A stretch of DNA of 64,000 bases from the NCBI RefSeq assembly GCF_003967075.1, contig NZ_AP018664.1, forward strand, positions 372,001 through 436,000. The letters are read 5' to 3'. Origin of the DNA: Sphingobium amiense (lineage in GTDB: Bacteria; Pseudomonadota; Alphaproteobacteria; Sphingomonadales; Sphingomonadaceae). The position numbers were made by a program, and so were the translations under genes. The first letter of the stretch is position 1. Each line of letters starts with the position of its first letter. The notes below the pieces were generated by a model. It was not told the DNA's origin. It worked only from the letters and a program-made list of their open reading frames with translations, and made no database searches. Positions 6,718 to 27,025 of this stretch are shown in pieces.

Positions 6718-7485
6718 TTGAACATCCCTCCGATTCCCTGGGCCAAGGTGCGGCAGCGCGCGGGCGGGCTGGCGTTTGCGCTGGTGCTCAACCTGCTGCT
6801 GCTGCTGGCGCTCTTCACCCTGTCGCCGCGCTTCGAGCCGCCCAAACAGGACGACCGGCTGCCCGTGACCTTCGACACCGAAGCGGGCAGGCAGAGCGAG
6901 GAGGCGAAGGCCAAGTCGGAGAAGTCGCAGGAGCGCGAGCAGAAGAAGACCGCGCCGGAAAAGGCCGCCGAGCCGGTGGTTCGCCCGCCGATCCCGGTCG
7001 AAAAGCCCGCCGAGCAGCCGCCTTCGCCCTTCCCCTTCCTGACGCTGAACCGCGAGCAGATGGCCGCCGCCGACATCGGCAGCCTGCCCAAGGGCGCTGC
7101 CGGGGCGGGATCGGGCCAGGGGGACAGCAAGGCGGTCGCCGGGCCGGGCGAAGGGCCGGGTGGCGTGCAACTGTTCGAGGCGGAATGGTATCGGCGGCCC
7201 ACCAATGCCGAGCTTTCGCCCTATCTGCCGCAGGACGCGCCCGCGCGCGGCTGGGGGCTGGTCGCGTGCAAGACGGTCGACCATTATCATGTCGAAAACT
7301 GTCAGACGCTGGGCGAATCGCCGCTGGGATCGGGCTTTGCCAAGGCGGTGCGGCTGGCGGCGTGGCAGTTTCTGGTCCTGCCGCCCCGCGTCAACGGCAA
7401 GGCGATGGTGGGAAGCTGGGTGCGCATCCGCATCGACTATACCCGCACGATGGTGCCCGCCGACGGGCCGGGGGCGGGCGAGTGA
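6718..7485 (+). CDS. TonB-like membrane-anchored protein, function uncertain
   Basis: The 255-residue protein has an N-terminal membrane anchor (GGLAFALVLNLLLLLALFTL), a charged Lys/Glu-rich stretch, a Pro-rich segment (PVVRPPIPVEKPAEQPPSP) and a C-terminal globular domain of about 110 residues (FEAEWYRRPTNAELSPYLP to WVRIRIDYTRTM). The layout recalls TonB energy transducers, and the ending WVRIRIDYT resembles the last strand of a TonB C-terminal domain, but no clear TonB signature was found. The only start near the anchor is TTG at 6718; a GTG at 6748 is possible. It is transcribed divergently from the DedA-lnt operon. The identity is tentative. Confidence 0.65.
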   Translation: MNIPPIPWAKVRQRAGGLAFALVLNLLLLLALFTLSPRFEPPKQDDRLPVTFDTEAGRQSEEAKAKSEKSQEREQKKTAPEKAAEPVVRPPIPVEKPAEQPPSPFPFLTLNREQMAAADIGSLPKGAAGAGSGQGDSKAVAGPGEGPGGVQLFEAEWYRRPTNAELSPYLPQDAPARGWGLVACKTVDHYHVENCQTLGESPLGSGFAKAVRLAAWQFLVLPPRVNGKAMVGSWVRIRIDYTRTMVPADGPGAGE

Positions 7486-7522
7486 TGGCGACAGCGAAGT
7501 GGACAGGTGCGGCGGCGCGCTG

Positions 7523-7550
7523 ATTATCGTTTCGGATACGGAACGATAAT
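7523..7550. promoter_or_regulatory. inverted repeat, candidate operator upstream of GST gene
   Basis: ATTATCGTT (7523-7531) pairs perfectly with AACGATAAT (7542-7550) around a 10-nt centre that continues the symmetry partly (TCGG/CGG). It lies 84 nt before the GST ATG and 37 nt after the preceding stop. The AT-rich dyad suits a TetR- or MarR-type operator better than a terminator, since no T tract follows. Confidence 0.45.
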
Positions 7551-7633
7551 GCGGAGAAATCGGGTTGCAAATCGGAACTGAGCAGGCATTGTGCGCGGCA
7601 GGCAGATCCGACCATGATGAAGGAGGAGCAGGC

Positions 7634-8281
7634 ATGATTATCCATGGGGCGCGGCCGTCGCCTTTCGTTCGCAAGGTCATTGCGTTCGCGAGCGAGAAGG
7701 GGATCGAGGCCGAGGTGGTGACGGCGGGCTTCGGGCGCGGAGCGGAGGGCTATCTGAAAGGATCGCCCTTCGGCAAGATTCCGGCGCTGGAGGATGGCGA
7801 TTTCCTGCTGTGCGATTCGACCGCGATCATAACCTATATGGATGCCATAAAGCCCGGCGATGAGATGATCCCGACAGAGCCGAAGGCGCGGGCGCGGACG
7901 ATCTGGTATGAGGAGTTCGGCGACACCATCGCGCAGGCGGCGGGCGCGAAGATGTTCTTCAACCGCGCTGTGGCCAAGCTGATGAAGCTGGAACCGGATC
8001 TGGCCGCGGCGGACAGGGCCGAGGCCGAGGAAATGCCGAAAATCTACGATTATCTGGAAAGCGTGATGCCCGATAGCGGCTGGCTGATCGAGGATCGCTT
8101 CACGCTGGCGGATCTGGCGGCGGCGTGTCCGCTCATCAATGCAGGCTATGTTTCGGACGGGCTGGACCCGGCGCGCTGGCCGAAGACGGCGGCGTGGCTG
8201 GCGGCGGTCAAGGCGCGGCCGAGCGTCGCGGCGGCTTTGGCGGAGGAAGCGCCGATCATCGCGGCGATGAAGGCGAAATAA
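7634..8281 (+). CDS. glutathione S-transferase family protein
   Basis: The 215-residue cytoplasmic protein has a thioredoxin-like N-terminal domain (IIHGARPSPFVRKVIAFASEKG, then GKIPALEDGDFLLCDSTAII with the cis-Pro and the DST motif that bind glutathione) and an all-helical C-terminal domain containing FTLADLAAACPLIN, the conserved N-capping Asp motif. ATG at 7634 is preceded by AGGAGG with 7-nt spacing, so the longer frame from 7565 is rejected. A dyad at 7523-7550 may control it. The substrate is unknown. It borders the GTA cluster but is not part of it. Confidence 0.9.
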   Translation: MIIHGARPSPFVRKVIAFASEKGIEAEVVTAGFGRGAEGYLKGSPFGKIPALEDGDFLLCDSTAIITYMDAIKPGDEMIPTEPKARARTIWYEEFGDTIAQAAGAKMFFNRAVAKLMKLEPDLAAADRAEAEEMPKIYDYLESVMPDSGWLIEDRFTLADLAAACPLINAGYVSDGLDPARWPKTAAWLAAVKARPSVAAALAEEAPIIAAMKAK

Positions 8282-8368
8282 CCTATATGGCACTTTCTGC
8301 TTGACAGCGTCACGCTGTTCTGGCAGGGATGGGCATAGTGGAAAATTGTGAGTCGCCGGATGCGGCGA

Positions 8369-8408
8369 CGCAAAAGGGCCGGTCCTGCAGAGGGCTGGCC
8401 CTTTTGCG
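8369..8408. terminator. bidirectional terminator-like hairpin before the TerS candidate
   Basis: CGCAAAAGGGCC (8369-8380) pairs perfectly with GGCCCTTTTGCG (8397-8408), a 12-bp stem with a 16-nt loop. The A and T tracts at the stem base make it a bidirectional intrinsic terminator type. It may end GST transcription, but it also lies only 27 nt before the ATG of the GTA terminase-small candidate. Another small stem (GTCGCC/GGCGAC) precedes it at 8352-8369. Confidence 0.65.
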
Positions 8409-8435
8409 TTGGTGCAGCGGTCGGGAGGGGCGGAG

Positions 8436-8969
8436 ATGAAGAATGCGGCGATCGGAAAGCAGCGTGCGGGCGGCGCGGCGAAGCTGCAACAGCGCAAGCG
8501 CCGCAGCGACGGCTGGACGAAGGAGGAGGAGCAACTGTTCCTCGAAACACTGGCCGAAACCTGCAACGCGAGCGAGGCGGCGCGCGTCGTCGGGCGGTGC
8601 CGCGCGGGCGCTTACCGCAAGCGCAGAGCCGATCCCGCCTTCGACCGGGCGTGGGAGGAGGCGAGGGACGAGGGCTATGCCGAGATCGAGCTGCTGCTGA
8701 TGCGCGCGTCGCTGTTCGGCGCGGAAAGCGAGGAAGTGACGACCGGCGCGGACGGCGCGGTCAAGGCGCGCAAGGTCAAGCGCGCGCCCAACCTGACGGT
8801 CGCGCTGCGCCTGTTCCTCGCCTATCGCGACAAGGTGGCGCAGAGCCGCGCGAGGCGGCGCGGAGGCGGGCCGGGCGGCGGGGCGCGGCCCGACAGCCCG
8901 GAAGCGGTCGCGCAGGTCAAGGCGATGATGGCTGCCATCGCGAAGAAGCGCGCGGCGGCGGGGGCTTGA
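8436..8969 (+). CDS. candidate GTA small terminase subunit (g1-like), HTH protein
   Basis: The 177-residue basic protein is rich in Arg and Lys. Residues 25-75 (GWTKEEEQLFLETLAETCNA, then SEAARVVGRCRAGAYRKR) look like a helix-turn-helix of the type found in phage small terminases, followed by a helical segment FDRAWEEARDEGYAEIELLL and a Lys/Arg-rich tail. The position, upstream of large terminase in an RcGTA-like cluster, fits g1, which was recognised as TerS in Rhodobacter capsulatus. ATG at 8436 follows GGAGGGGCGGAG. Unlike RcGTA, about 1.9 kb of other genes separates it from terL. The role is inferred from position and the HTH-like region. Confidence 0.65.
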   Translation: MKNAAIGKQRAGGAAKLQQRKRRSDGWTKEEEQLFLETLAETCNASEAARVVGRCRAGAYRKRRADPAFDRAWEEARDEGYAEIELLLMRASLFGAESEEVTTGADGAVKARKVKRAPNLTVALRLFLAYRDKVAQSRARRRGGGPGGGARPDSPEAVAQVKAMMAAIAKKRAAAGA

Positions 8970-9122
8970 CGCGCGGTCGATCCGCGGCGGGGGTGCACGG
9001 GCTATGATGGACAGGCTTCGATGAAAGCCTTTGATTGGACAGCCTTCGATGGACAGGCGCGCGCGGACCTCTATCGTGCGGTGCGCGTTGGCGATGCGGG
9101 CGCGGCTGAACGAAGGACGGAT

Positions 9123-9473
9123 ATGCGGATCTGGGCGATGGCGGGACTGATGCTGGCGGGCGCGCTGGCGGGATGCGGCGAAAAAGCGGAGCAGCCGACG
9201 CTCGCCAATGCGGGCGCTGCGGCGGGCGGGGCGGCGGGCGCGGAGACGGGCGCGGCGGCTGAGGTCGCCAAGTTGGACGAGGCCACGCGCAACATCGTCC
9301 TCGAACGCGCGATCAAGGCGAGCGGCGCGGCCTGCCCCGCCGTGACGGCATCGACCCGCGTCGACGTGCGGCCGGGCGTGCCGGGCTGGAAAGCGCAATG
9401 CGACAATGACAGCGCGCACCTGATCGAGATATTGCCGGACGGCACGGGGAAGGTGACGAGCCGGACTTATTGA
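9123..9473 (+). CDS. small lipoprotein, function unknown
   Basis: The 116-residue protein has a type II signal sequence MRIWAMAGLMLAGALAGC, with lipobox LAGC placing the lipidated Cys at residue 18, then an Ala/Gly-rich linker and a C-terminal part with two Cys (AACPAV, AQCDND) that could form a disulfide. ATG at 9123 is preceded by AAGGACGG. It sits between the GTA terS and terL candidates on the same strand but has no resemblance to GTA structural proteins. I do not recognise the family. Confidence 0.7.
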   Translation: MRIWAMAGLMLAGALAGCGEKAEQPTLANAGAAAGGAAGAETGAAAEVAKLDEATRNIVLERAIKASGAACPAVTASTRVDVRPGVPGWKAQCDNDSAHLIEILPDGTGKVTSRTY

Positions 9474-9524
9474 GGGGGAAGATAGGATACAGCGGACGCC
9501 CACTTCGTCCATGACCGCCTATTT

Positions 9525-10019
9525 CTAACGGGCACTCCTGTCCACCACGAGAGATGGTGATTGGTTATGGTAGCTCCAGCGCTGTAAACACTGTCGAGCT
9601 TCATCCGTGATGCCGGGTGAGACCAATGAGAATGTTGGATTGCCGTAGGGACTTGTGCCGCGTCCAACATATTTTGGATCTGCTTGACATGCTTGCACGG
9701 CCTCCGACAAACTTCGCCCGGCGCAGATTTTTTGGCTGCGCGCATTATATTGGTAGGCGAGCCAAGTCGTAAGGAAAGCTGCAGAAGCAACAGCAGCGGC
9801 GAAGAAGAAATATCTCCAGAGGTTCTTCCTGGCAGCGCGAGACATAAGCCAAGCTGCAACGGCAAAAGCCAGTGGCATGACAATGCGGCTGACTATCTGT
9901 AACCAACCATCGTCCTCGCAAGGGGCATAGCTGTAGCTGAAGAAGAAGCCTAATGGCCAGAGACACGCAATCACAATAAGGCATGGAGCAACGGATAGGG
10001 CTGCACCTTTCAGGACCAT
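9525..10019 (-). CDS. hypothetical membrane protein in low-GC patch
   Basis: The 164-residue protein has three hydrophobic segments (APCLIVIACLWPLGFFFSY, IVMPLAFAVAAWLM, YFFFAAAVASAAFLTTWLAY) and a soluble C-terminal tail with several Cys (ICAGRSL, VQACQAD, RQCLQR). It runs antisense to the GTA genes around it. By eye the base composition is close to 50% GC, clearly below its surroundings, suggesting recent acquisition. ATG at 10019 is chosen; GTG and TTG codons 3-4 codons upstream are alternatives. The family is not recognised. Confidence 0.55.
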   Translation of the reverse strand: MVLKGAALSVAPCLIVIACLWPLGFFFSYSYAPCEDDGWLQIVSRIVMPLAFAVAAWLMSRAARKNLWRYFFFAAAVASAAFLTTWLAYQYNARSQKICAGRSLSEAVQACQADPKYVGRGTSPYGNPTFSLVSPGITDEARQCLQRWSYHNQSPSLVVDRSAR

Positions 10020-10031
10020 GCGCTTCAACAC

Positions 10032-10433
10032 CCGCGCAGGTTAGCAGGTCGGCTGAAATTCCGCCATATCCGCTTTTCTGGCCGTTGCCGGATATGCTCC
10101 GTTCCAAGGCGATGCGCGCCCGCACCTTGTCCTCTGAACGCCTGAGACCCCAGCCTTCGCTGGGGTGACGGGGGAGGAGGAGGGCGGTGCCGGTCTGCAA
10201 ACTGGCGTGGGAACGGCAAAGGTGCGTGCGGGGCCAGAGGGTGTTGCGCTCATCGGCGGGATGCCCCTCCGTCTGACCTTTGGTCGGGCACCTCCCCTGC
10301 GAGAGGAGGATGAGGGCGTCGCGCTCCATCCCCGTCATGCCGGGCTTGACCCGGCATCCCGCTTTCTGGGGGGGTAGCTGGACCCCGGATCAAGTCCGGG
10401 GTGACGGGGGTGGAGAGTGCGCAGCGTTGGCGC
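10032..10433. repeat. gene-free stretch carrying dispersed palindromic repeats
   Basis: No convincing gene is seen. It holds three inverted repeats of types common in sphingomonad intergenic DNA: GACCCCAGCcttcGCTGGGGT near 10145-10168, TGCCGGGcttgaCCCGGCA at about 10338-10356, and ACCCCGGAtcaagTCCGGGGT at about 10382-10402. The last two are joined by a short spacer and read like one composite unit. A related unit occurs at 13069-13144 and a partial one near 19270-19315. Confidence 0.6.
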
Positions 10434-10655
10434 CTACCGCGCGTCGGTGGTGTTGGCGGGGTCGGTGCTGGCGAGGGCGAGTGCCTGCGCGGTGCCGGTG
10501 GCGGGCTTTACGGGGTCGGGGCGGTGCGAGACATAGCCCGCGGCGAGCGATCCGCCGCCCACGATCAGCATGGCGCCCAGAATCGAGACGATTTCGTGGC
10601 GGCCCGGACGGCGGGCGGGCTGGGTCTTCGGACGGTCGGCAGGGGTGTCTTTCAT
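10434..10655 (-). CDS. small single-pass membrane protein, unknown
   Basis: The 73-residue protein begins MKDTPADRPKTQPARRPGR, has one membrane segment (IVSILGAMLIVGGGSLAAGY) and a short polar tail. ATG at 10655 has AGAAGGA about 8 nt upstream. It is antisense to the GTA genes and divergent from terL, leaving 200 nt between the two starts for control sequences. No family is recognised. Confidence 0.6.
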   Translation of the reverse strand: MKDTPADRPKTQPARRPGRHEIVSILGAMLIVGGGSLAAGYVSHRPDPVKPATGTAQALALASTDPANTTDAR

Positions 10656-10754
10656 CGGCGAAATCCTTCTTCGCGGTTGCGGTAGGAAGCCGGAGAAATG
10701 ACGCTGGCGCAGGCTGAGTTCCAGCAACGGACGATGACATTTTATTGCTGCAAC

Positions 10755-10767
10755 ACGGAAATTCCGT
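10755..10767. promoter_or_regulatory. 13-bp palindrome upstream of terL
   Basis: ACGGAA-A-TTCCGT is a perfect 6+1+6 palindrome in the divergent gap between the small membrane-protein gene and the large terminase gene, 89 nt before the terL ATG. The local sequence is AT-richer than the surrounding DNA. It is a candidate operator for the GTA terL transcript or the divergent gene. Confidence 0.4.
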
Positions 10768-10855
10768 TCGTTTACAGGCGCGAAACAGAGGCGCGGCGGG
10801 CTGTGCCGCCCGGGCGGCGGATCGTGATGCTGACGGATCGGGGAAAGGGAGGGCG

Positions 10856-12163
10856 ATGCGGGTTTCGGACAGCGAATGGCTGGCGCGCGCGGACGGGCGG
10901 GTGCGGGCGGCGCTGCTGGCGCGGCTGGACGCGGGAGGCGCGGAGCGGCTGCTGACCGAATGGCGGTTCCTCGCGCGGGCGGCGCAACTGCCGCCGCAGG
11001 GCGACTGGCGCGTGTGGCTGATGATGGCGGGGCGCGGCTTCGGCAAGACGCGCGCCGGGGCGGAATGGGTGCGGTCGGTCGCGGAAGCCGACCCGGCGGC
11101 GCGGATCGCTCTGGTCGGCGCGACGCTGGGGGAGGCGCGCAGCGTGATGGTGGAGGGCGCTTCGGGCGTGCTGAGCATCGCGCCATGGTGGGCGCGGCCC
11201 GACTATGCCCCGGCGCTGCGCAGGCTGACCTGGCCCAATGGCGCGGTGGCGACTTTGTTCGGGGCGGCGGACCCCGAAGGGCTGCGCGGGCCGCAGTTCA
11301 GCCATGGCTGGGCCGACGAGATCGCCAAATGGGCGGGCGGCGAGGCGGCGTGGGATAACCTCATGATGGGGATGCGGCTGGGCGAGCGCCCGCGCGTGCT
11401 GGCGACGACGACGCCGAGGCCGGTGCCGCTGGTGCGGCGGTTGGTGGGCGGGGACGGCGTGGCCGTGACGAAGGGCGCGACGGCGGAGAATGAAGCGAAC
11501 CTCGCGCCCGGCTTCGTCGCGGCGATGGCGGCGGCCTATGGCGGGACAAGGCTGGGGCGGCAGGAGCTGGACGGCGAGCTGATCGAGGAGGTGGAGGGGG
11601 CGCTGTGGACCCGCGACCTCATCGAGCGGTGCCGGGTGGCGCATGTGCCGGGCGTGCTGGCCCGCGTGGTGGTGGCGGTCGATCCGCCCGCGAGCGCGGG
11701 GGGCGATGCGTGCGGGATCGTGGTGGCGGGCGTGGGCGGCGACGGGCGCGGCTATGTGATCGCGGACGCGAGCGTCGAGGGGCAGCGGCCCGAAGGCTGG
11801 GCGCGGGCGGTCGCTGCGGCGGCGATGGTGCATGGCGCGGACCGGGTGGTGGCCGAAGCGAATAATGGCGGGCAGATGGTCGAAAGCGTGCTGCGCGCGG
11901 CGGAAGCGGCGCTGCCGGTGCGGCTGGTCCATGCGAGCCGGGGGAAGGCGGCGCGGGCCGAGCCGGTGGCGGCGCTCTACGAGGCCGGGCGGGTGGCGCA
12001 TCGCGGGGCTTTCCCGGCGCTGGAGGACGAGATGTGCGGGCTGCTGGCGGGGGGCGGCTATGTCGGGCCGGGGCGCTCGCCGGATCGCGCCGACGCTCTG
12101 GTGTGGGCGATGAGCGAGCTGATGCTGGGGAGAGTGGGCGAGGCGCGGGTCAGGGGGATGTGA
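10856..12163 (+). CDS. terL: GTA large terminase subunit (g2-like)
   Basis: The 435-residue packaging motor has an N-terminal ATPase with Walker A MMAGRGFGKTRAGAEW (about residues 55-70) and Walker B in SHGWADEIAKW, followed by the coupling region TTTPRPVP. The C-terminal RNaseH-fold nuclease shows acidic positions in VVVAVDPPAS, VVAEANNGGQM and SPDRADALVWAM. The length and order match the short terminases of GTAs and related phages. ATG at 10856 follows AAAGGGAGGGCG; the in-frame extension to 10745 is rejected as low-complexity. Codon use is extremely GC-rich, as in the other GTA genes here. Confidence 0.95.
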   Translation: MRVSDSEWLARADGRVRAALLARLDAGGAERLLTEWRFLARAAQLPPQGDWRVWLMMAGRGFGKTRAGAEWVRSVAEADPAARIALVGATLGEARSVMVEGASGVLSIAPWWARPDYAPALRRLTWPNGAVATLFGAADPEGLRGPQFSHGWADEIAKWAGGEAAWDNLMMGMRLGERPRVLATTTPRPVPLVRRLVGGDGVAVTKGATAENEANLAPGFVAAMAAAYGGTRLGRQELDGELIEEVEGALWTRDLIERCRVAHVPGVLARVVVAVDPPASAGGDACGIVVAGVGGDGRGYVIADASVEGQRPEGWARAVAAAAMVHGADRVVAEANNGGQMVESVLRAAEAALPVRLVHASRGKAARAEPVAALYEAGRVAHRGAFPALEDEMCGLLAGGGYVGPGRSPDRADALVWAMSELMLGRVGEARVRGM

Positions 12164-12221
12164 GGGATGGGGGGGAGAGCGGAATGTCGGCTTTGCGCTA
12201 GAAATCGACAGTAGCAGACGT

Positions 12222-12953
12222 TCAGTTCACGATGGTGCAGCCCCATCCGTCATACTCACCGCCACTATCCCGCGCCGCTCTGAAGAGATCGATTGTCACA
12301 TCATCGATTTGATCTGGCCGATCGATCCTATCGAACGTGACCTGAAATTCGCCGTTTGTAGCGTCAGCCTCTCCTATGACAGCATATCCCTTTGCGGCGA
12401 GATGTTTGACAAAGATATTTCTGGCCTCTCGCGAAGGAAATAGGGCAAAATGATCAATTGTTCGGGGTTCATCTATATGGTCGCCCTGTTTCAGTAGGTG
12501 ATCGACAACATCTCGATTTCCTATGCGTCGAAAATCTTCTGGTGATGGATAAAGAAAGCGCCAATACGTTGACCACTCCTTATCGCGGCGACAGCCAGTC
12601 TGATATTCATAGGACGGCCAATTTTTCATAGCCTTTCCAAAGAAATTTCCGATCAATTCATTTTGCGAGTAGAAGTAAAAATCTCGATTCCCACTTGACG
12701 TATTCCGCCCAACATAAAGATATTTCCCGGTGCGTTCTGCTGCTTCTGCTACGTCTTTCTCCAAAGAAATCAGACTATCGTATTCGTCTTGACTGGATAA
12801 CCCATCCGGCCGGGGATTATTCATCCTGACGCGTAAATATGCCATAATCGGAAAATCAGCGATCTGCGTTTCTTTCGTGACCCCGAGATCGACAAAGATC
12901 GACGCTGGCTCGTCATCGACAAGGAGAGCATAAAAATTCCAATTGTCGGACAT
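12222..12953 (-). CDS. DUF695 plus RraB-like two-domain protein, low-GC insertion
   Basis: The 243-residue soluble protein begins MSDNWNFYALLVDDEPASIF. Its N-terminal half (about 1-140, with ASIFVDLGV and LEKDVAEAAERTGKYLYVGR) resembles DUF695. The C-terminal part (about 150-243, IDHFALFPSREARNIFVKHL to GCTIVN) resembles the RraB/ribonuclease E inhibitor fold domain often attached to it. Both calls are from pattern memory. By eye its composition is near 48% GC against about 68% around it, and it is antisense within the GTA cluster, so it looks transferred. ATG at 12953 is used; GTG two codons upstream is possible. Confidence 0.7.
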   Translation of the reverse strand: MSDNWNFYALLVDDEPASIFVDLGVTKETQIADFPIMAYLRVRMNNPRPDGLSSQDEYDSLISLEKDVAEAAERTGKYLYVGRNTSSGNRDFYFYSQNELIGNFFGKAMKNWPSYEYQTGCRRDKEWSTYWRFLYPSPEDFRRIGNRDVVDHLLKQGDHIDEPRTIDHFALFPSREARNIFVKHLAAKGYAVIGEADATNGEFQVTFDRIDRPDQIDDVTIDLFRAARDSGGEYDGWGCTIVN

Positions 12954-13294
12954 CTGCACATCTCGTTGATTGAGAATGATTACCTGCGATGTAGGTCTAT
13001 ATGGGAGCTTTGAGGATACGCAATTGCTTATGCGGCTGACCTACAGTGGTCGCTTCTTGCCCTCCTTCGTCATGCCGGGCTTGGCCCGGCATCCCGCTTG
13101 TTTCCGATCGCTTGGAAAGCGGGCCCGGCTCGGGGGCAGGGATGACGGTGGGCGTTGCGCCGCCCCCTCATCCAACTTCGCCTAGCCGCCGTGCGGCAAG
13201 GCTTCGTATCCTTCTCCCCCATGTGGAGAAGGGTGGAACCCGCGCCGTCGCGTCATCGTTCTTGATCCAGATGAATTTCAACGGAGCAAGTGCG
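12954..13294. repeat. intergenic repeat block (composite palindrome plus two-hairpin copy A)
   Basis: The stretch holds TGCCGGGcttggCCCGGCA and a second partial stem to about 13144, the same family as 10334-10408. It is followed by copy A of the two-hairpin repeat (13165-13232): outer arms CCT/AGG, hairpin 1 GCCGC/GCGGC (13185-13197), hairpin 2 CCTTCTCC/GGAGAAGG (13210-13232). No gene is seen in it. Confidence 0.65.
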
Positions 13295-13633
13295 ATGAAG
13301 AAGGTTTCCATGCTGGCGGCTCTGGTCGGTGTGTCGGTGGTGGCCACGCCTGTCATGGCGGCGTCCCTCAACAGCAAGGAGCGGGCGCGGGTGGCGCGGG
13401 CGGCTCCGCGGGATCGGGACGATGTGCGCTACTGCCTGCTGCAGGGCAAGAAAGGGCGCGACAAGGGCACGGTGATCGGCGCGGCGGGCGGCGCGGGCGT
13501 TGGCCTGCTCGCGGGCGGGAGCGTCGGCGAGACTCTGCTGGGCGCGGGCGCCGGTGCGGTCGCGGGCCGCCTGATCGGCAAGAGCGAGGGCACGAACGCG
13601 ACCTGTGATCGGGTGCTGGCGAGGAATCGGTGA
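13295..13633 (+). CDS. secreted glycine-zipper protein
   Basis: The 112-residue protein has a Sec signal peptide (MKKVSMLAALVGVSVVATPVMAA) and a central glycine zipper (GTVIGAAGGAGVGLLAGGSV, then LLGAGAGAVAGRLIG) like that of small outer-membrane or periplasmic proteins in the 17 kDa antigen/YMGG group, with two Cys flanking it (YCLLQ, ATCDR). It has no lipobox Cys. ATG at 13295 has GGAG 8 nt upstream. It lies between GTA terL and portal but is probably a host envelope gene inserted there. The strong hairpin of repeat copy E follows its stop. Confidence 0.8.
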   Translation: MKKVSMLAALVGVSVVATPVMAASLNSKERARVARAAPRDRDDVRYCLLQGKKGRDKGTVIGAAGGAGVGLLAGGSVGETLLGAGAGAVAGRLIGKSEGTNATCDRVLARNR

Positions 13634-13649
13634 CGCGGCGTAGCGCTGG

Positions 13650-13726
13650 CCCACCCCGCTGTGACTAAGGCGGCAGAGCCGCCAAGTCTCGCTGCCCCTC
13701 CCGCGTGCGGGAGGGGTTTGTTTTTT
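13650..13726 (+). terminator. two-hairpin repeat copy E acting as a terminator
   Basis: Repeat copy E (13650-13716) has outer arms ACT/AGT, hairpin 1 GGCGGC/GCCGCC and hairpin 2 CCCCTCCCGC/GCGGGAGGGG (13695-13716, a 10-bp perfect stem with 2-nt loop). Hairpin 2 is followed by TTTGTTTTTT, which makes it a strong intrinsic terminator on the plus strand, 17 nt after the glycine-zipper gene. Confidence 0.7.
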
Positions 13727-13728
13727 GG

Positions 13729-13755
13729 AGCCTCTCCGTTGTGGGGAGGCTTTTT
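13729..13755 (+). terminator. terminator-like hairpin immediately before portal gene
   Basis: AGCCTCTCC (13729-13737) pairs with GGGGAGGCT (13743-13751) with one G-T wobble and a 5-nt loop, followed by TTTTG. It ends 20 nt before the portal ATG and stands in tandem behind the terminator at 13695-13726. Confidence 0.7.
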
Positions 13756-13775
13756 GCATTTTGGGGAGCATCCGC

Positions 13776-14912
13776 ATGAAATGGTTCGGGACGAAGGCGG
13801 CCGCGGGCGATGCGCGGCCGGTGCTGGCGCGTGCATGGGGCACGGGGGCGGTGGCGCTGGGGGAGTGGCCCGCAAGCTATGAGGCGCAGGTGCGCGCGGG
13901 CGTGATGGGCAATGCCGTGGCGCAACGGGCGATGCGGCTGGTGTCGGAGGGCGCGGGGGCGTGCCAGATCAAGGTGCGGACCGCCGATACGATGGGCGCG
14001 GGGGACGGCGCGCGCATCCTCGCGCTGGTCGGGCGGGCTTCGGCGGGACAGGGGCTGATCGAGACGCTGGCCTGCCATCTGCTGCTGCACGGCAACGCCT
14101 ATGTTCAGGTGATCGGCGGCGCGGACGGGATGCCCGCCGAACTTTTCGCGCTGCGGCCCGAGCGGGTGAGTGTGGAGGCGGACGCGCGCGGCTGGCCCGC
14201 CGCCTATCTCTATCGTGTGGGAGAGAGCGTGACGCGGCTGCACCCGGAGGATGCGGCGGGGCGGACGAGCGTGCTGCATCTGAAGTCGCTCCATCCGCTC
14301 GACGATCATTATGGCCTCGGCTGCGTCGGCGCGGCGGCGGGCGCGGTGGCGATCCACAATGCGGCGAGCGTCTGGAACAAGGCGCTGCTGGACAATGCGG
14401 CGCGGCCCAGCGGCGCGATGGTCTATGAGCCGGGCGACGGATCGGTGCTGTCGCCCGAGCAATATGAGCGGGTGAAGCGCGAGATGGAGGCGGCCTTCGC
14501 GGGCGCGGCCAATGCCGGGCGGCCGATGCTGCTGGAGGGGGGCTTAAGCTGGAAGGCGATGAGCCTGACGCCCGCCGAGATGGATTTTGTGGGGCTGAAA
14601 AGCGCGGCGGCGCGGGAGATCGCGCTGGCGTTCGGGGTGCCGCCGATGCTGATGGGGCTGCCCGGCGACAACAGCTACGCCAATTATCGCGAGGCGAACA
14701 AGGCGCTGTGGCGGCAGGCGATCCTGCCGCTGGTGGCGAAGATCTGCGGCGGATTGAGCCAGGGTCTGAGCGGCTGGTGGCCGGGCGTCGCGGTGGAGGC
14801 GGACCTGGACGCGGTGCCTGCGCTGTCGGACGAGCGGGCGGCTTTGTGGGAGCGGGTAGCGGCGGCGGATTTTCTGTCGGCGGACGAGAAGAAGGCGATG
14901 CTGGGGCTTTAG
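13776..14912 (+). CDS. GTA portal protein (g3-like, HK97 family)
   Basis: The 378-residue protein forms the dodecameric DNA-entry vertex. HK97-portal traits include LLLHGNAYVQVIGG, LHPLDDHYGLGCV, the stretch IHNAASVWNKALLDNAARPSG and the late motif FGVPPMLMGLPGDNSYANYREA. ATG at 13776 follows GGGGAGC. Terminator-like hairpins at 13695-13726 and 13729-13755 stand right before it with no room for a promoter after the second. Its last 4 nt overlap a convergent small gene. The length is near the lower end for HK97 portals and fits GTA forms. Confidence 0.95.
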   Translation: MKWFGTKAAAGDARPVLARAWGTGAVALGEWPASYEAQVRAGVMGNAVAQRAMRLVSEGAGACQIKVRTADTMGAGDGARILALVGRASAGQGLIETLACHLLLHGNAYVQVIGGADGMPAELFALRPERVSVEADARGWPAAYLYRVGESVTRLHPEDAAGRTSVLHLKSLHPLDDHYGLGCVGAAAGAVAIHNAASVWNKALLDNAARPSGAMVYEPGDGSVLSPEQYERVKREMEAAFAGAANAGRPMLLEGGLSWKAMSLTPAEMDFVGLKSAAAREIALAFGVPPMLMGLPGDNSYANYREANKALWRQAILPLVAKICGGLSQGLSGWWPGVAVEADLDAVPALSDERAALWERVAAADFLSADEKKAMLGL

Positions 14913-15082
14913 TCGGGCGCGCGCTGCGGCAGGGTGTCGAGGCGGCAGAAACCGCCGTCCCACGCCCATGTGCCGCCCTGCGTCCAGCAGTCGGCGGCGC
15001 GGTCGAGGCCGAAATGCCAGCCCAGCGCGGCGAGGGCGAGGATCGCGATCAGGATCAGGACTTTGCGGCGCGCGCGCTTCAT
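14909..15082 (-). CDS. small membrane-anchored protein, unknown
   Basis: The 57-residue protein begins MKRARRKVLILIAILALAALGW, a single basic-flanked membrane segment, followed by a short domain with two Cys in ADCWTQGGTWAWDGGFCRLD, which may form a disulfide in the periplasm. It is antisense inside the GTA cluster, and its stop overlaps the portal stop by 4 nt. I have a weak memory of similar short sphingomonad hypotheticals. No ribosome-binding site is obvious. Confidence 0.55.
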   Translation of the reverse strand: MKRARRKVLILIAILALAALGWHFGLDRAADCWTQGGTWAWDGGFCRLDTLPQRAPD

Positions 15083-15128
15083 GGCGGCGCAGATAGGCGC
15101 TGGGGCAAGCATTGGGAAGGAGGGCGGC

Positions 15129-15443
15129 ATGAAGGATGAGATGCTGGCGCGGCTGGTCGCGCAGGCGGAGGGGCAGGTCGCCGACATGGTGACGATCCGC
15201 GCGCTGATCGAAGAAGCGAGCGAGCGGGGCGCGGGCCGGGCGCTGGAGCGGCTGGGGCTGGCGGATCGCGGCGCGGAGGGCGATGTGCGGGAACTGCGCG
15301 AGCTGCTGTCGGCGTGGCGCGACGCGAAGAAGGCGGCGCGCGGCGCGGTGATCGGCTGGATGGCAAGGATCGCCATGGCGCTGATCTTGCTGGGGATCGC
15401 GGTGAAGACGGGACTTGTCGGATTGGTTCGCACCGGTCTTTGA
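15129..15443 (+). CDS. DUF6127-like protein between portal and protease (g3.5 position)
   Basis: The 104-residue protein has a predicted amphipathic helical N-terminus (MLARLVAQAEGQVADMVTIR, then ALIEEASERGAGRALERLGL) and one C-terminal membrane segment (WMARIAMALILLGIAVKTGL). It stands where RcGTA has g3.5. The pattern matches what I recall as DUF6127 in sphingomonad GTAs. ATG at 15129 follows GGAGGGCGGC. The role in the particle is unknown. Confidence 0.8.
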   Translation: MKDEMLARLVAQAEGQVADMVTIRALIEEASERGAGRALERLGLADRGAEGDVRELRELLSAWRDAKKAARGAVIGWMARIAMALILLGIAVKTGLVGLVRTGL

Positions 15444-15598
15444 TCCAGGACGGCCTGCAAACGGCATCGCCCTCCGCTTCCGGTGCTCACGTGCATTGAG
15501 CACGCTCCGCGCCGGTTCTCGGGCGACGCCATTTTCGGCTCATCCTGAACCAAATCCCGGCACGAACCGGGCATCATTGGACTTTGGAGGGAGGGGAT

Positions 15599-16000
15599 AT
15601 GGCAGGCGACCTGCGCTTTGCCGGATATGCGGCGATATTCGACCGGGTGGACCGGGGCGGCGATGTGGTGCGGGCGGGGGCCTTTGGCGACATCGCGGCG
15701 GCGGGCGTGCCTTTGCTGTGGCAGCATGGGCCGGGCGCGGTGATCGGCACGGTCGAGAGCGCGCGGGAAGATGCGCGCGGGCTGCGGGTGATTGCGCGGG
15801 TGTCGCGGTCGAGCGCTGCGGGGCGGGAGGCGGCGGCGGCGCTTGTCGAGGGCGCGGTGGATGGCCTCAGCTTCGGTTATCGCGTCAAGGCGGCGCGGGG
15901 CGCGAGGCCGCGCGAGCTGCTGGCGCTGGAACTGGTGGAGGTGAGCGTGGTGACGCACCCGATGCAGCCGCTGGCAAGGGTGGTGAAGGTGGAGGGGTGA
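15599..16000 (+). CDS. GTA prohead protease (g4-like, HK97 family)
   Basis: This 133-residue serine protease cleaves the capsid N-terminal domain during head maturation. HK97-protease traits are FAGYAAIFDRVDRGGDVV, the catalytic His in LLWQHGPG and the catalytic Ser in DGLSFGYRV. A late LVEVSVVTHPMQPLARV completes the fold. It is short for the family, as in GTAs. ATG at 15599 follows GGAGGGAGGGG. A frameshifted antisense gene separates it from the capsid gene it should serve. Confidence 0.93.
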   Translation: MAGDLRFAGYAAIFDRVDRGGDVVRAGAFGDIAAAGVPLLWQHGPGAVIGTVESAREDARGLRVIARVSRSSAAGREAAAALVEGAVDGLSFGYRVKAARGARPRELLALELVEVSVVTHPMQPLARVVKVEG

Positions 16001-16001
16001 G

Positions 16002-16674
16002 TCAGACGATCCCCAGCCATTCAAGGTCGCCGGGCAGCGGGTCGGCGCTGTAGTCGAGTTGCAGAACCCGGCGGCGGCGGGGGTTTGAGGCGGCGTCGGA
16101 GGCGTGAAGGATCGGCGTGGAATAGAGCCAGATGTCTCCGCGTTCGGCGAGGCAGCTTTGAATGCCGCATCGTTCGACGAGGGACAGGACTTCGCCTTCG
16201 GCCACGCGCCCATATCTATGCGATCCGGGCGCGATCAGCAGGGGGGGCATTGTTCGCATCGACGGGATCGAGGTGCACGCGCAAGGTCAGCATCCTGTCG
16301 AGCAGCGATTGGGGCGGAGCGACATGGTGGATGCCGGATTTGACCGTCCATGGGCCGAAGCCCGGCGTATCCACGCGGAATTGCACCGCGATGGTGCGGT
16401 CCTGATGCCATCCGAGCGCCCAGTTGTTTGCCTCGCTCTTGTCAAAGAGGATGGCGCGCACGGGCTGTGCCTTTGGTCCCAGATGGCTGGCGGCGTGACG
16501 GCCGATCCGGCCTGTCATTCCCAGAAGGGCGGCAAGCGCCGGAAGGTGGGTGAGGCGCTGGCCCGGCTGGTTTGCGGGCAGGGAGGCGATCGCATTTTCC
16601 ATTGACGCGAGCGCGGTGGCGTCAAGCGCCAGCGGGATATGCTGTGCGCCGTGATCGGCGAGGGTGAGGGACAT
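16002..16674 (-). pseudogene. phytanoyl-CoA dioxygenase-like gene with frameshift in a homopolymer
   Basis: Two overlapping minus-strand frames together make one PhyH-family Fe(II)/2-oxoglutarate oxygenase. The first (start 16674, MSLTLADHGAQHIPLALDAT) carries the metal-binding HxD in LGWHQDRTIAV. The second, ending at 16002, carries LLIAPGSHRYGRV and the distal HASDAASNPRRRRVLQLDYS with the second His and the 2-oxoglutarate Arg. They meet at seven C on the minus strand (16241-16247); six C would restore NN-A-PLLIAPGSH. It is a sequencing error, a recent inactivation or a phase-variable tract. It is antisense between GTA protease and capsid genes. Confidence 0.8.
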
Positions 16675-16714
16675 GCGCGCTTTATGAGCAAAGGCCGGAG
16701 GGGCGGCAAGCACT

Positions 16715-16787
16715 CGCTCCCCCCTCACCAACTGCGTCTGGGCAGCCAAGCTGCCAAGACTTCGTATCCTCCCCCCAAGGGGGGAGG
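16715..16787. repeat. two-hairpin dispersed repeat, copy C
   Basis: Architecture as in the other copies: outer arms TCT/AGA, hairpin 1 GGCAG/CTGCC and hairpin 2 CCTCCCCCC/GGGGGGAGG (16768-16787, 9-bp perfect). It is followed 9 nt later by a separate terminator hairpin just ahead of the capsid gene. Confidence 0.7.
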
Positions 16788-16795
16788 AGCATGTG

Positions 16796-16823
16796 GGCGG
16801 TCCATTTCGGGCCGCCTTTTTTT
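16796..16823 (+). terminator. terminator-like hairpin immediately before capsid gene
   Basis: GGCGGTCC (16796-16803) pairs with GGGCCGCC (16809-16816) with one T-G wobble, followed by seven T (16817-16823). It has the same stem sequence type as the UrrA terminator at 32425-32452. It ends 12 nt before the capsid ATG, leaving space only for the ribosome-binding site. Confidence 0.75.
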
Positions 16824-16835
16824 GTGGAGACGGGC

Positions 16836-17951
16836 ATGACGGATCAACTGGAAGCGAGCCTTGACGTGGTGGCGCAGGGGGAGAGGATCGAGGGGCTGGC
16901 GCAGGAGGTGGCGGCGCTGAAGGGGGCTTTGCTGAGCGCGCGCAGGCCCGCGCTCGACGGGGTGAAGGGCGGCGTCGAGGATCCGGCGCGGGCGGCGTTC
17001 GTCGATCGCTATCTGCGGCAGGGACTGGAAGCGGGCGTCGAGCTGAAGAGCTTTTCGGGCGCGTCGGGGGCTGCGGGCGGCTATGCCGTGCCGCGCGAGA
17101 TCGACCAGTTGATCGGATCGACGCTCAAGGGGCTGTCGCCGATCCGCGCCATCGCCAATGTGGTGCGCACGGGCAGCGCGGGATACCGCAAGCTGGTGAC
17201 GTCGGGCGGGATCGTGTCGGGCTGGGCGAGCGAGACGGGCGCAAGGGCCGAAACGGGCACGCCCGCCTTCAACGAGATCGTGCCGCCTTCGGGCGAGCTG
17301 TTCGCCAATCCGGCGGCCAGTCAGGCGATGCTGGACGACGCGCAGTTCGATGTCGAGGGATGGCTGGCGAGCGAGATCGCCCGCGAGTTCGCGGCGGCGG
17401 AGGGCGCGGCCTTCGTCAGCGGCAACGGGACGAACAAGCCCAAGGGCTTTTTGACCTATACCACCACCAATGAGGCGGACGGGGTGCGCGCGTTCGGGTC
17501 TCTGCAATATGTGGCGTCGGGCGCGGCGGGCGCTTTTGCAGCGAGCAATCCGCAGGACCGGCTGATCGACCTGATCCAGAGCCTGCGTGCGCCTTACCGG
17601 CAGGGTGCGAGCTTCGTCATGAACTCCGCGACGCTGGCGGTCATCCGCAAGATGAAGACGGCGGACGGGGCGTTCCTGTGGCAGCCGTCGATGGCGGAGG
17701 GGCGGCCCGCGACGCTGCTGGGCTATCCGGTGGTCGAGGCCGAGGACATGCCGGACATTGCCGCCAACAGCCTGTCGATCGCGTTCGGCAATTTCCAGTC
17801 GGGCTATGTGATCGCGGAACGCAGCGAGACGAGCATCCTGCGCGATCCGTTCAGCAACAAGCCCTTCGTCCACTTCTACGCCGTCAAGCGCGTCGGCGGG
17901 GGCGTGGCGAACTCGGAAGCGATCAAGTTGATGAAGTTTTCCGCCTCGTAA
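16836..17951 (+). CDS. GTA major capsid protein (g5-like, HK97 fold)
   Basis: The 371-residue protein has an N-terminal helical scaffold (about 1-90, LEASLDVVAQGERIEGLAQEV) that the prohead protease should remove. The HK97 fold follows, beginning near SGASGAAGGYAVPREIDQLI, with PASQAMLDDAQFDVEGWLAS, the loop AFVSGNGTNKPKGFLTY and GYPVVEAEDMPDIAANSL. ATG at 16836 has GGAGA upstream. A seven-T terminator ends 12 nt before the start, and another hairpin with a T tract follows the stop. Confidence 0.96.
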   Translation: MTDQLEASLDVVAQGERIEGLAQEVAALKGALLSARRPALDGVKGGVEDPARAAFVDRYLRQGLEAGVELKSFSGASGAAGGYAVPREIDQLIGSTLKGLSPIRAIANVVRTGSAGYRKLVTSGGIVSGWASETGARAETGTPAFNEIVPPSGELFANPAASQAMLDDAQFDVEGWLASEIAREFAAAEGAAFVSGNGTNKPKGFLTYTTTNEADGVRAFGSLQYVASGAAGAFAASNPQDRLIDLIQSLRAPYRQGASFVMNSATLAVIRKMKTADGAFLWQPSMAEGRPATLLGYPVVEAEDMPDIAANSLSIAFGNFQSGYVIAERSETSILRDPFSNKPFVHFYAVKRVGGGVANSEAIKLMKFSAS

Positions 17952-17977
17952 AAGGGCGGGACGGAAGGACGGTATCG

Positions 17978-18010
17978 GGGGCGCGGGCGGCAGGTCCGCG
18001 CCCCTTTTTC
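17978..18010 (+). terminator. terminator-like hairpin between capsid and adaptor genes
   Basis: GGGGCGCGG (17978-17986) pairs perfectly with CCGCGCCCC (17996-18004), followed by TTTTTC. It lies 26 nt after the capsid stop and 23 nt before the adaptor ATG. It would favour capsid mRNA over downstream tail genes unless transcription reads through. Confidence 0.75.
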
Positions 18011-18033
18011 TTTGACGGCGGGAGGCGGCCCAC

Positions 18034-18579
18034 ATGCTGATGGATGCGGAGGACGGGGCGCTGCCCGCGTCGCTGGCGGAACTGAAGACCTATCTGCGGA
18101 TCGCGGGGGATGGAGAGGATGCGGTGCTGAACGGGCTGCTGCGCGGCGCGGGGGCGCTGTGCGAGCGGTTCACCGGTCAGTGGCTGATCGTGCGGCAGAC
18201 GCGCGAGACGCTGTTCGGACCGCGCGCGGCGGGCGCGTGGCAGCGGCTGACGGCGCGGCCCGTGGTGGCGATCGAGAGCGTCGGGACGGTGGGCGCGGAC
18301 GGAGCGGTGACGCCGCTGCCGGTCGACGCCTATGCGGTCGACATCGACGGCAATGGCGAGGGATGGGTGCGCATCGCGCGCGGGGGCTTTTCCGGCACGA
18401 TGGCCGTCACCTATCGCGCGGGGCTGGCGAGCGATGCCGATGCGGTGCCGGAGGCGCTGCGGCAGGGCGTCGTGCGGCTGGCGGCGGAACATTATCTGGC
18501 GCGCGGGGGCGACAGCGCCACGCCGCCCGCCGTGGTGAGCGCGCTGTGGCGGCCATGGCGCCGGATGCGGCTGGCATGA
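18034..18579 (+). CDS. GTA head-tail adaptor (g6-like)
   Basis: The 181-residue protein matches phage gp6-like connectors: an N-terminal helical bundle (LAELKTYLRIAGDGEDAVLN, then LLRGAGALCERFTGQWLI), a central beta part (RPVVAIESVG..) and C-terminal EALRQGVVRLAAEHYLARGG. It joins the portal to the tail interface. ATG at 18034 follows GGGAGG. It overlaps the next gene as ATGA (stop 18577-18579, next start 18576), starting a chain of translationally coupled genes. Confidence 0.88.
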   Translation: MLMDAEDGALPASLAELKTYLRIAGDGEDAVLNGLLRGAGALCERFTGQWLIVRQTRETLFGPRAAGAWQRLTARPVVAIESVGTVGADGAVTPLPVDAYAVDIDGNGEGWVRIARGGFSGTMAVTYRAGLASDADAVPEALRQGVVRLAAEHYLARGGDSATPPAVVSALWRPWRRMRLA

Positions 18580-18758
18580 GGATCGCGCGGCTGCTGGAGC
18601 GGCGGGCGCAGGCGCGGCGCGAGGGGATCGCGGCGGCGCTGACGAACGCGGGGGTCGAGGCGCATGTCGAGGGCGAGGCGGTGCGGATCGGCGGGCGGGG
18701 GCTGCGCGCGCGCTGGATGCGTAATCTGGCCCTGCGCGAGGCGGGGAGAGGATTATGA
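18576..18758 (+). CDS. small head-tail joining protein (g7 position)
   Basis: The 60-residue protein, MRIARLLERRAQARREGIAA onward, is basic with a predicted helical start and a C-terminal beta-like part (VEGEAVRIGGRGLRARWMRN). By position, between adaptor and tail terminator, it corresponds to RcGTA g7 (stopper), though it is shorter and no motif proves it. It overlaps both neighbours by 4 nt (ATGA), so it is very likely translated. Confidence 0.7.
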   Translation: MRIARLLERRAQARREGIAAALTNAGVEAHVEGEAVRIGGRGLRARWMRNLALREAGRGL

Positions 18759-19159
18759 GCGCGGAAATGGCGGTGCGGGCCGCGATGATCGCGGCGCTGC
18801 GGGCGGACGGGGCGCTGATGGCGCTGGTCAACGGCGTGCATGACGGGGAGCCTGCGCGCGCGGCGGCGCCTTATGGCTTTGCGGGCGAGTGTATCGGCAG
18901 CGACTGGGGCGGCAAGGATCTGGAGGGGCGTGAGATACGCCTGTCGGTCGGCCTGGTGGCGGCGGCGGACGGTGCGGCGGCACTCGCGGCGATGATCGCG
19001 CGGGTCGATCCGGCGATGCAGGGGCTGGTGGCGGCGGACGGCTGGCGCGTGGCAAGCGCGCGGCTGGTGCGCTCCCGCATCGCGCGGGAGGGGCCGGCGC
19101 CGGCGAGCGGATGGCGCGCGGTGGTGGATTATCGCGTGCGGGTGGTGCGGGACGGGTGA
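18755..19159 (+). CDS. DUF3168 tail terminator protein (g8-like)
   Basis: The 134-residue protein has DUF3168 traits: AVRAAMIAALRADGALMALV at the N-terminus, then YGFAGECIGSDWGGKDLEGR and the C-terminal strand WRAVVDYRVRVVR. It ends the tail tube and joins it to the head. It is coupled to the preceding gene by an ATGA overlap. After it the cluster is broken by a repeat and an antisense gene before the tail tube gene. Confidence 0.88.
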   Translation: MSAEMAVRAAMIAALRADGALMALVNGVHDGEPARAAAPYGFAGECIGSDWGGKDLEGREIRLSVGLVAAADGAAALAAMIARVDPAMQGLVAADGWRVASARLVRSRIAREGPAPASGWRAVVDYRVRVVRDG

Positions 19160-19170
19160 CGGGCGCGCGC

Positions 19171-19226
19171 CCTCTCAACTTCGCCTGAGGCGGCTGACGC
19201 CGCCAAGGCTCCGTATCTCTCCCCGA
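19171..19226. repeat. two-hairpin dispersed repeat, copy B
   Basis: Outer arms are CCT/AGG, hairpin 1 GGCGGC/GCCGCC and hairpin 2 TCTCTCCCC/GGGGAGAGA with a 2-nt loop. A partial palindrome GGACCCGGctcggggGCCGGGG follows to about 19315, a fragment of the composite repeat also seen at 10334-10408. Confidence 0.65.
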
Positions 19227-19338
19227 GGGGAGAGATTGGCAGGCGGGCGGCGTCCCGTGGGGTGGCCTTGGCTGCAAGGAAGCTGGACCCGGCTCGGGGG
19301 CCGGGGTGACGGGGTTTTTTCAGCGGCTCGGGCGGAAA

Positions 19339-19665
19339 TCAGCCCGGACGGCTGCTCTCTTCATATTCCGACGTGATCTTGTCGACATATTCGCTGATCT
19401 GGTCGTCGGCGTCCGATGCCGACGCGCTGTCGGACATCTTGTCGCCCTTGTCCTGCGCGACGATGGCGGCGCGGAAGGCGGCTTCCTGCGTGGCGCAGGC
19501 TTTCTTGATCGACGCCTGAAAATCGCCGGTGGACTTCTTGGCGTCCAGCGCCGGCTGCACCTGCGCGGAGAGGCATTTGGTGAAATCCTTCCGCCCGGTG
19601 CCCACGGCATCGGCCGAAGGCGCGGTGGCGGCCATCATCGCGAGCGAAGCAACGGCAATGAACAT
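19339..19665 (-). CDS. secreted small periplasmic protein, unknown
   Basis: The 108-residue protein has a signal peptide (MFIAVASLAMMAATAPSADA) and a mature helical, charged domain with two Cys (FTKCLSAQV, KKACATQEAA) and an acidic tail DADDQISEYVDKITSEYEES. ATG at 19665 is preceded by GGAGAGGG, which decides it over the longer frame from 19722. It is antisense between GTA tail terminator and tail tube genes; its start lies 55 nt from that of the tail tube gene. The family is not recognised. Confidence 0.7.
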   Translation of the reverse strand: MFIAVASLAMMAATAPSADAVGTGRKDFTKCLSAQVQPALDAKKSTGDFQASIKKACATQEAAFRAAIVAQDKGDKMSDSASASDADDQISEYVDKITSEYEESSRPG

Positions 19666-19720
19666 CTTACCCTCTCCATATCCTGCATTTTGCACGGTTT
19701 GACCAAAGAAAGGATGCGCC

Positions 19721-20651: not shown

Positions 20652-20675
20652 GGCCGGAGGCTGGTGCGTGGGGGC

Positions 20676-20718: not shown

Positions 20719-20736
20719 GGCGGGAGGCCTTATTTC

Positions 20737-24801: not shown

Positions 24802-24813
24802 GGGGAGACAGGC

Positions 24814-27012: not shown

Positions 27013-27025
27013 GAGGAAGGAACGG

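Follow-up and report, generated by a model that had tools for sequence, protein, structure and literature searches.

The gene transfer agent (GTA) cluster of Sphingobium amiense raises the question of how RNA polymerase could traverse a set of structural genes, several of which are immediately preceded by hairpins resembling transcription terminators. The cluster lies in a stretch of 64,000 nucleotides (G000:C1:372001-436000 of the 4.77-Mb genome), hereafter the window, to whose numbering positions refer unless another contig or locus is named. An earlier note on this sequence had proposed that strong hairpins stand directly before the genes for the terminase small subunit (TerS), portal, capsid and head-tail adaptor, that at the last three the space left before the start codon is too short for a promoter, and that these genes might be expressed through antitermination, which could explain tight, rare-cell expression. 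The positions of the hairpins and of the start codons are borne out by the sequence and by RNA folding, as is the lack of room for a promoter. We consider it probable that the cluster is transcribed from a single promoter and that its terminators are overridden by an antiterminator of the GafZ family, antitermination as such being well supported by the anatomy of the locus. The hairpins at issue are:

8366..8411, plus strand: leader hairpin before TerS, -41.1 kcal/mol, terminator-like, with T4 within the stem
13694..13726, plus strand: first predicted intrinsic terminator before portal, stem 13694-13717, -20.9 kcal/mol
13727..13757, plus strand: second predicted intrinsic terminator before portal, stem 13728-13752, -16.8 kcal/mol
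16795..16824, plus strand: predicted intrinsic terminator before capsid, stem 16795-16817 followed by T7, -17.1 kcal/mol
17977..18013, plus strand: predicted intrinsic terminator after capsid and before adaptor, stem 17977-18005, -27.1 kcal/mol

The two portal hairpins, the capsid hairpin and the adaptor hairpin have the canonical form of an intrinsic terminator, namely a GC-rich hairpin with a T run directly after it on the transcribed strand; read on the minus strand, the stems at portal, capsid and adaptor lack such a run. The TerS hairpin, though the earlier note had counted it with the rest, has a longer, symmetric stem (A4...T4) and a short T run; it is the most stable of the five, and is absent from the list of terminator-like sites in 7001-27000 because its sole T run is the T4 inside the stem. 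When each was folded against 200 dinucleotide shuffles, the first portal hairpin was matched by 1/200 and the other four by none. The interval 7001-27000 contains 16 terminator-like sites as against 9.4 in shuffles (standard deviation 3.6), a total which is only mildly raised, and the top four of the 16 are the adaptor, first portal, capsid and second portal hairpins. Against a within-genome background of 464 kb, made up of the window and 20 stretches of 20 kb, a terminator-like site lies 5-70 nt upstream of 4/26 called starts in 8400-28000 and of 17/365 elsewhere, with the four being exactly TerS, portal, capsid and adaptor (the capsid start having been set by hand at 16836). This excess of terminators at GTA starts within the genome is modest.

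The comparison with relatives is more telling about place. The window was taken together with the best 80 named loci of 541 relatives to give 81 sequences, of which 41 (the window, L004-L042 and L054; mostly Sphingobium, as are the closest capsid relatives in general) form the closest group and 40 are more distant; the gene caller, terminator finder and motif search were simple custom scripts. Under a strict rule, which demands a hairpin of at most 40 nt and -12 kcal/mol or better, with at least 5 T in 8, inside the 90 nt ending 5 nt before the start codon, a terminator precedes the capsid gene in 37/41 of the closest clusters versus 3.65 expected from shuffles. The corresponding counts are 21/34 before portal (2.75 expected), 14/40 before the adaptor (0.95) and 8/36 before the gene at 20737-21297 (1.90). 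Other gene starts in this group give 2/28 for the terminase large subunit (TerL; 0.70 expected), 1/34 for the DUF6127 gene (0.55), 1/36 for the major tail protein (1.15), and none in 36 for either the protease (0.65) or the tail completion gene (0.25). On the antisense strand, the counts are 1/41 at capsid, 0/34 at portal and 0/40 at the adaptor. Terminators within 90 nt after a gene were found in 19/41 for capsid (2.85 expected), 10/39 for protease (1.90) and 3/34 for portal (0.30). A looser rule finds a terminator before capsid in 48 of the 81 loci and after capsid in 51, with 36 loci having both, the figures for the 41 closest being 38, 36 and 33; in a few of these cases the after-capsid site overlaps the called start of the next gene. 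In a sample from outside the family (20 regions, from 20 of 28 matching genomes), a terminator precedes capsid in 3/20 (L141 and L142, which belong to the same family, and L152) and follows it in 7/20. The internal terminators are thus mainly a trait of the closest clusters.

The hairpin before the adaptor is better called the terminator after capsid, because in many relatives among the loci listed other genes stand between it and the adaptor, a point on which the earlier note's set of four equivalent hairpins again gives way. The gene-order comparison took in the 80 named loci and was read from the first 48 of them. The genes found between capsid and adaptor in many relatives encode a fibre-like protein with a Peptidase_S74 domain (chaperone of endosialidase) and a 92-aa gp77-like fibre-tail adaptor protein, as at L004:11204-13145 and also in L012, L035 and L050; in the window the adaptor lies directly 3' of capsid.

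The capsid hairpin shared by most close relatives has the form GGGCGGTCC-loop-GGGCCGCC, followed by a T run, and typically lies 18-41 nt before the start. Taken with the six bases that follow it, the hairpin has a mean pairwise score of 0.63 among 37 close clusters, compared with 0.37 for the 30 nt upstream (0.35 when shuffled) and 0.49 for 30 nt of capsid coding sequence. At this position six loci (L030, L033, L034, L036, L037, L039) carry a stem quite unlike the shared one. In all 37 scored hairpins the first 6 nt past the stem include 4-6 T, although the selection rule itself had asked for at least 5 T in 8. The hairpin is retained where the protease-capsid gap is just 66-97 nt and nothing is inserted (L011, L017, L018, L020, L024, L032). 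At gaps of 14-23 nt it precedes capsid in 0/14 loci, and 7 of these 14 have a terminator after capsid (L049, L051, L060, L062, L070, L079, L081). For covariation, 27 of 36 capsid hairpins were aligned with MAFFT, omitting L005 and L021 (other hairpin or register) and L030, L033, L034, L036, L037, L039 and L054 (different stems), with L024 and L027 retained though both were placed out of register. Pairing stands at 95.9%, which 5/500 shuffles reach, and 7 cells are changed on both sides, which none of 500 reach; the number of pairs changed on both sides is reached by 71/500, the covariation score by 13/500 and the number of further pair types by 500/500, and a shift of the partners by +1 or +2 raises the covariation score. 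The covariation of the capsid hairpin is mixed, and the case therefore rests on its conserved place, strand and form. The portal alignment (19 of 21 hairpins, L014 and L030 omitted) was made with no covariation count.

Upstream of TerS there is a conserved block with the look of a promoter, consisting of the following elements:

8278..8292, plus strand: AACC-N5-GG element, a candidate site for an upstream regulator, conserved 5' of the promoter block
8301..8329, plus strand: putative cluster promoter, TTGACA, 17-nt spacer and CAGGGA at the -10 position
8305..8317, plus strand: palindrome CAGCGTCACGCTG in the promoter spacer, a candidate GafZ-binding element from its sequence and from a placement like that of the Caulobacter GafZ-binding element (ZBE)

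The conserved order is AACC-N5-GG, an A/T-rich stretch, TTGACA, the 17-nt spacer (TCGTCACGCTG.T.TGG), the -10 position, GAAAAATTGTGAGTCG and the hairpin. With at most one mismatch, the TTGACANCGTNACGCT block occurs in 52/81 sequences, several of the others being contigs cut short; in five loci (L049, L051, L055, L058, L078) the match lies 2.5-3.5 kb from TerS. The genome itself has one exact match (window 8301) and two with 3 mismatches, and the reversed control has one. The first 16 columns of the logo were the search pattern, hence are conserved by selection, and only the other columns are independent: among 61 aligned sites these include T19 (60), G22 (60), G23 (57), A25 (60) and A27 (53), while in the AACC-N5-GG element C at -17 is kept in 58, G at -11 in 54 and G at -10 in 56. 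In regions from other genera, the block (at most 2 mismatches) stands before TerS or TerL in 14/20. Right after TTGA, the palindrome of the window reads CAGCG-TCA-CGCTG, and its arms are retained around other centres in L114, L115, L118, L119, L122 and L133, which represent six other genera. It is imperfect in 43/61 sites because position 7 is T, such that the left arm reads CATCG.

The TerS hairpin, lying 3' of this block, is probably part of the leader of the cluster transcript, which further sets it apart from the hairpins before portal and around capsid. It was aligned in 15 of the 22 close clusters with the promoter block; L006, L028, L030, L034, L035, L039 and L041 were omitted, a number of these having no such hairpin. 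Pairing over its 10 pairs stands at 98%, and 4 of them have changed on both arms, which none of 500 shuffles reach; the covariation score, 0.262 versus 0.165, is likewise reached by 0/500. No leader hairpin of this form occurs in L028 or L034. Other genera have leader hairpins with other stems, with T5-6 in some (L114, L117, L127) and weak T runs in others.

The remaining component is the candidate antiterminator. The genome has one member of DUF6456 (G000:C1:2613048-2613434, E=3.8e-37, above the Pfam cut-off; 2.1e-37 in a second search), the family to which homologues of GafA are assigned in PMC9638019 and PMC9765227. The GafZ-family protein is about 153 aa long (L003:8040-8501, minus strand) and is encoded beside a divergent XRE-type gene (L003:8592-9155, plus strand). 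Linkage to the cluster is seen in 12 genomes, drawn from 12 other genera, where gafZ precedes capsid by 3.6-12 kb and shares its strand; a divergent xre accompanies it in 11/12 (L118 has no xre match). L115 is arranged as xre, gafZ, promoter block, terminator, terS, terL, portal. A DUF6456 gene also falls within 2/20 of the outside-family regions (L136, L139). Because AACC-N5-GGTT occurs in 7/11 of the xre-gafZ gaps (L114-L117, L119, L122, L125), and a similar element lies upstream of gafZ in the present genome, the sequences suggest an upstream regulator shared by gafZ and the cluster, as GafY is in Caulobacter. RogA, which represses gafYZ, combines an N-terminal helix-turn-helix (HTH) with a LexA/cI-like C-terminal domain. 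The XRE gene beside gafZ has an XRE-type HTH and no S24 match at E<=1; it may be a RogA-like repressor.

The genes which such a system would serve follow the head-tail order of clusters like that of the Rhodobacter capsulatus GTA (RcGTA), as judged from Pfam and PHROGs:

8436..8969, plus strand: TerS, phrog_4044 (E=3.4e-08), identified by PHROGs only, with no Pfam match
10856..12163, plus strand: TerL, Pfam PF03237 and PF17289
13295..13633, plus strand: resident gene 5' of portal, with weak glycine-zipper matches
13776..14912, plus strand: portal, PF04860, E=1.7e-71
15599..16000, plus strand: head maturation protease, PF04586
16836..17951, plus strand: major capsid protein, PF05065, E=4.4e-87
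18034..18579, plus strand: head-tail adaptor, PF05135 and phrog_442

The gene caller placed the capsid start at 16791; this was rejected, since relatives, judged by eye, do not preserve a start at that position. The cluster is interrupted by gaps of 1.9, 1.1 and 0.8 kb with partly antisense genes. The minus-strand genes within it are 12222-12959, which encodes a DUF695 and RraB protein, 14909-15082 and 16002-16674. Such an interrupted cluster would be hard for an unmodified polymerase, which should stop, also through Rho in the long untranslated parts.

Under the proposed mechanism, one main promoter upstream of TerS (8301-8329) would drive the whole cluster, and the polymerase would meet first the leader hairpin (8366-8411), then the terminators before portal and on either side of capsid. 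All of these would, in ordinary cells, halt leaky and read-in transcription. In producing cells the GafZ-family protein, encoded elsewhere beside its divergent XRE-type regulator, would bind the palindrome in the promoter spacer and join the polymerase, such that the terminators are ignored along the cluster. From 8301 the polymerase would have to pass the leader hairpin, then 1.9 kb of genes on both strands up to TerL and another 1.1 kb up to the resident gene at 13295; beyond that lie the two portal terminators, a 0.8-kb stretch that ends in the capsid terminator, and the terminator after capsid.

Lambda Q acts at PR'/tR', in a logic that resembles the switch proposed here. As in the Q-PR'-tR' system, some relatives (L115) have the antiterminator gene upstream of the late promoter, and a candidate binding element sits between -35 and -10, with a terminator-like hairpin in the leader and the late genes beyond; unlike lambda, Sphingobium has extra terminators inside the structural cluster. 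The conserved layout of this kind with extra terminators before portal and around capsid is what is new here. The earlier note's statement that no such mechanism had been described for GTAs is wrong, as GafZ-mediated antitermination of the Caulobacter GTA cluster has been published (Tran & Le 2024, PMC11150451). By that paper's account, polymerase from the GTA promoter reads through both terGTA and E. coli rrnB T1 in the presence of GafZ, the ZBE is a palindrome between the -35 and -10 of that promoter, and GafZ has no sequence or structural similarity to lambda Q. Shared with the GafY/GafZ/IHF system as portrayed there are an RcGTA-like cluster, a GafZ-family gene, a single promoter (here putative) ahead of the first gene with a palindrome in its spacer, an untranslated leader, and a terminator that needs read-through, although promoter and termination are here predicted from sequence. 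In contrast, the Caulobacter terGTA is described as three 150-bp GC-rich repeats after the first gene, whereas Sphingobium has T-run hairpins in the leader, before portal, and before and after capsid; further, a consensus TTGACA marks the Sphingobium promoter-like block, the genome yielded no GafY, and the palindrome differs in sequence.

GafA of R. capsulatus is, as presented in PMC9638019, likewise a DUF6456-family activator of an RcGTA-like cluster, but it differs from the Sphingobium GafZ in its greater length, in a DNA-binding part at its N-terminus and in its contact with the omega subunit of RNA polymerase; the string "terminat" is absent from the main text of that paper. GafA-related homologues have been reported across alphaproteobacterial orders (PMC9765227). 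In the open-licence literature searched we found no description of Sphingomonad GTA terminators or of their promoter, and where PMC11409702 uses "terminator", the passages concerned refer to the tail terminator protein.

Several observations weigh against this mechanism. The strict rule is passed before TerS in only 4/24 of the closest clusters (0.45 expected), and the conservation seen in that group weakens in the 40 distant loci, where the counts are 7/40 before capsid (0.70 expected), 2/37 before portal (0.35), 2/38 before the adaptor (0.55), 5/38 before the DUF6127 gene (0.60) and 3/20 before TerS (1.05), with no excess after capsid (3/40 versus 2.10). CAGGGA is a weak -10 in this genome, and an alternative -10 may lie about 10 nt downstream. 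The genome's own xre/gafZ pair (C1:2613039-2614154) is far from the GTA cluster and unlinked to it. In a family sample of 99 genomes, with gafZ in 87 and a capsid relative in 70, the co-occurrence of the two says nothing, because gafZ is found in 63/70 capsid-positive and 24/29 capsid-negative genomes. No GafY (DnaA domain IV-like, PF08299) was recognised beside gafZ in this genome, whose only PF08299 match above the cut-off, C1:1126-1332, we take from its place to be DnaA, one weak match lying elsewhere (E=0.075). The antitermination proposed in the earlier note hence retains its footing in the sense-strand conservation of the hairpins and in the DUF6456 member of the genome, but not in the likeness of the four hairpins to one another.

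Of the alternatives, insulation or dosage control without dedicated antitermination fares best, while being unlikely in our estimate. Here ordinary terminators would end resident genes, block read-in and tune ratios by partial read-through, for instance keeping the genes after capsid below capsid itself. The portal hairpins lie directly 3' of the resident plus-strand gene (13295-13633), whose position is occupied in many close relatives, among the loci listed, by a plus-strand gene (x111-x114), and the pair may serve as that gene's own terminator rather than as equivalents of the capsid hairpin; the after-capsid terminators in outside-family regions are likewise as insulation would have them. 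However, a terminator before capsid would cut the protein needed in most copies, and the six tight clusters, in which protease and capsid adjoin without an inserted gene, have it in the short gap between the two. The leader hairpin, for its part, would have no cistron ahead of it on its own transcript, provided that the 8301 block is the promoter. Simple insulation accounts for the portal and after-capsid hairpins, not for the one before capsid. As a related candidate, terminators of the inserted minus-strand genes were rejected because the minus-strand stems lack a T run and tight clusters keep the capsid hairpin.

It is improbable that the chief role of the hairpins is to protect or mark the processed 5' ends of mRNA, yielding a stable, hairpin-flanked capsid message: this would suit the 33 of 41 close clusters with hairpins on both sides of capsid under the looser rule, yet a stabiliser needs no T run, which every scored capsid hairpin has, if partly through the rule of selection. 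That the hairpins are functionless, arising by chance in GC-rich DNA or from dispersed repeats, is very improbable, since despite the mild site total of the 20-kb interval, the partial repeat of the first portal hairpin at 2948-2983 and two capsid-like hairpins elsewhere in the genome, their place- and strand-specific conservation is far above shuffles, other gene starts and the antisense strand, and the 464 kb searched contain no second copy of the stretches that precede capsid, adaptor and TerS.

As to these repeats, the first portal hairpin recurs in part between 2948-2983 and 13683-13718 (92% over 36 nt). At 32425-32450 of the window a stem near-identical to the capsid terminator (GGCGGTCC-TGAC-GGGCCGCC and a T run) lies 3' of an unrelated gene, and a third copy of the pattern is at C1:4020368. 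The pair at 2948-2983 and 13683-13718 and the near-identical short intergenic repeats at 10333-10364 and 13068-13099, which lie inside or near the GTA region, have few or no more copies in 400 kb elsewhere in the genome (BLAST). A search of window positions 1-32000 against Rfam gave 16 matches at E<=1, all under the gathering score, and no known RNA family: one is at 10320-10421, one at 14554-14600 and 14 are at 5426-5551, where a strong inverted repeat matches hairpin RNA models, mostly microRNAs, on both strands and is probably just a long perfect hairpin.

Beyond the single-promoter antitermination mechanism, a broader reading, to which we give somewhat less than an even chance, is that the RcGTA-like elements of Sphingomonadaceae may contain a complete domesticated late-phage switch, with an XRE repressor, gafZ, an antiterminator site within the promoter spacer, a tR'-like leader terminator, and terminators before portal and flanking capsid. 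GafZ would then be of Q type, perhaps loading at a promoter-proximal pause, and the added terminators, kept in place by selection while some stems change, would act as safeguards by which each cell expresses capsid and portal either fully or not at all.

If the proposed mechanism is true, GafZ antitermination, so far shown in Caulobacter, would extend to Sphingomonadaceae, with testable cis elements now named in the promoter, the candidate GafZ site, the leader terminator and the internal terminators. Strong selection for translational efficiency has been reported for Sphingomonad GTA genes (PMC9765227). Antitermination would make a cluster split by 0.8-1.9 kb of unrelated, partly antisense genes readable as one unit, and would account for the avoidance of leaky capsid production.

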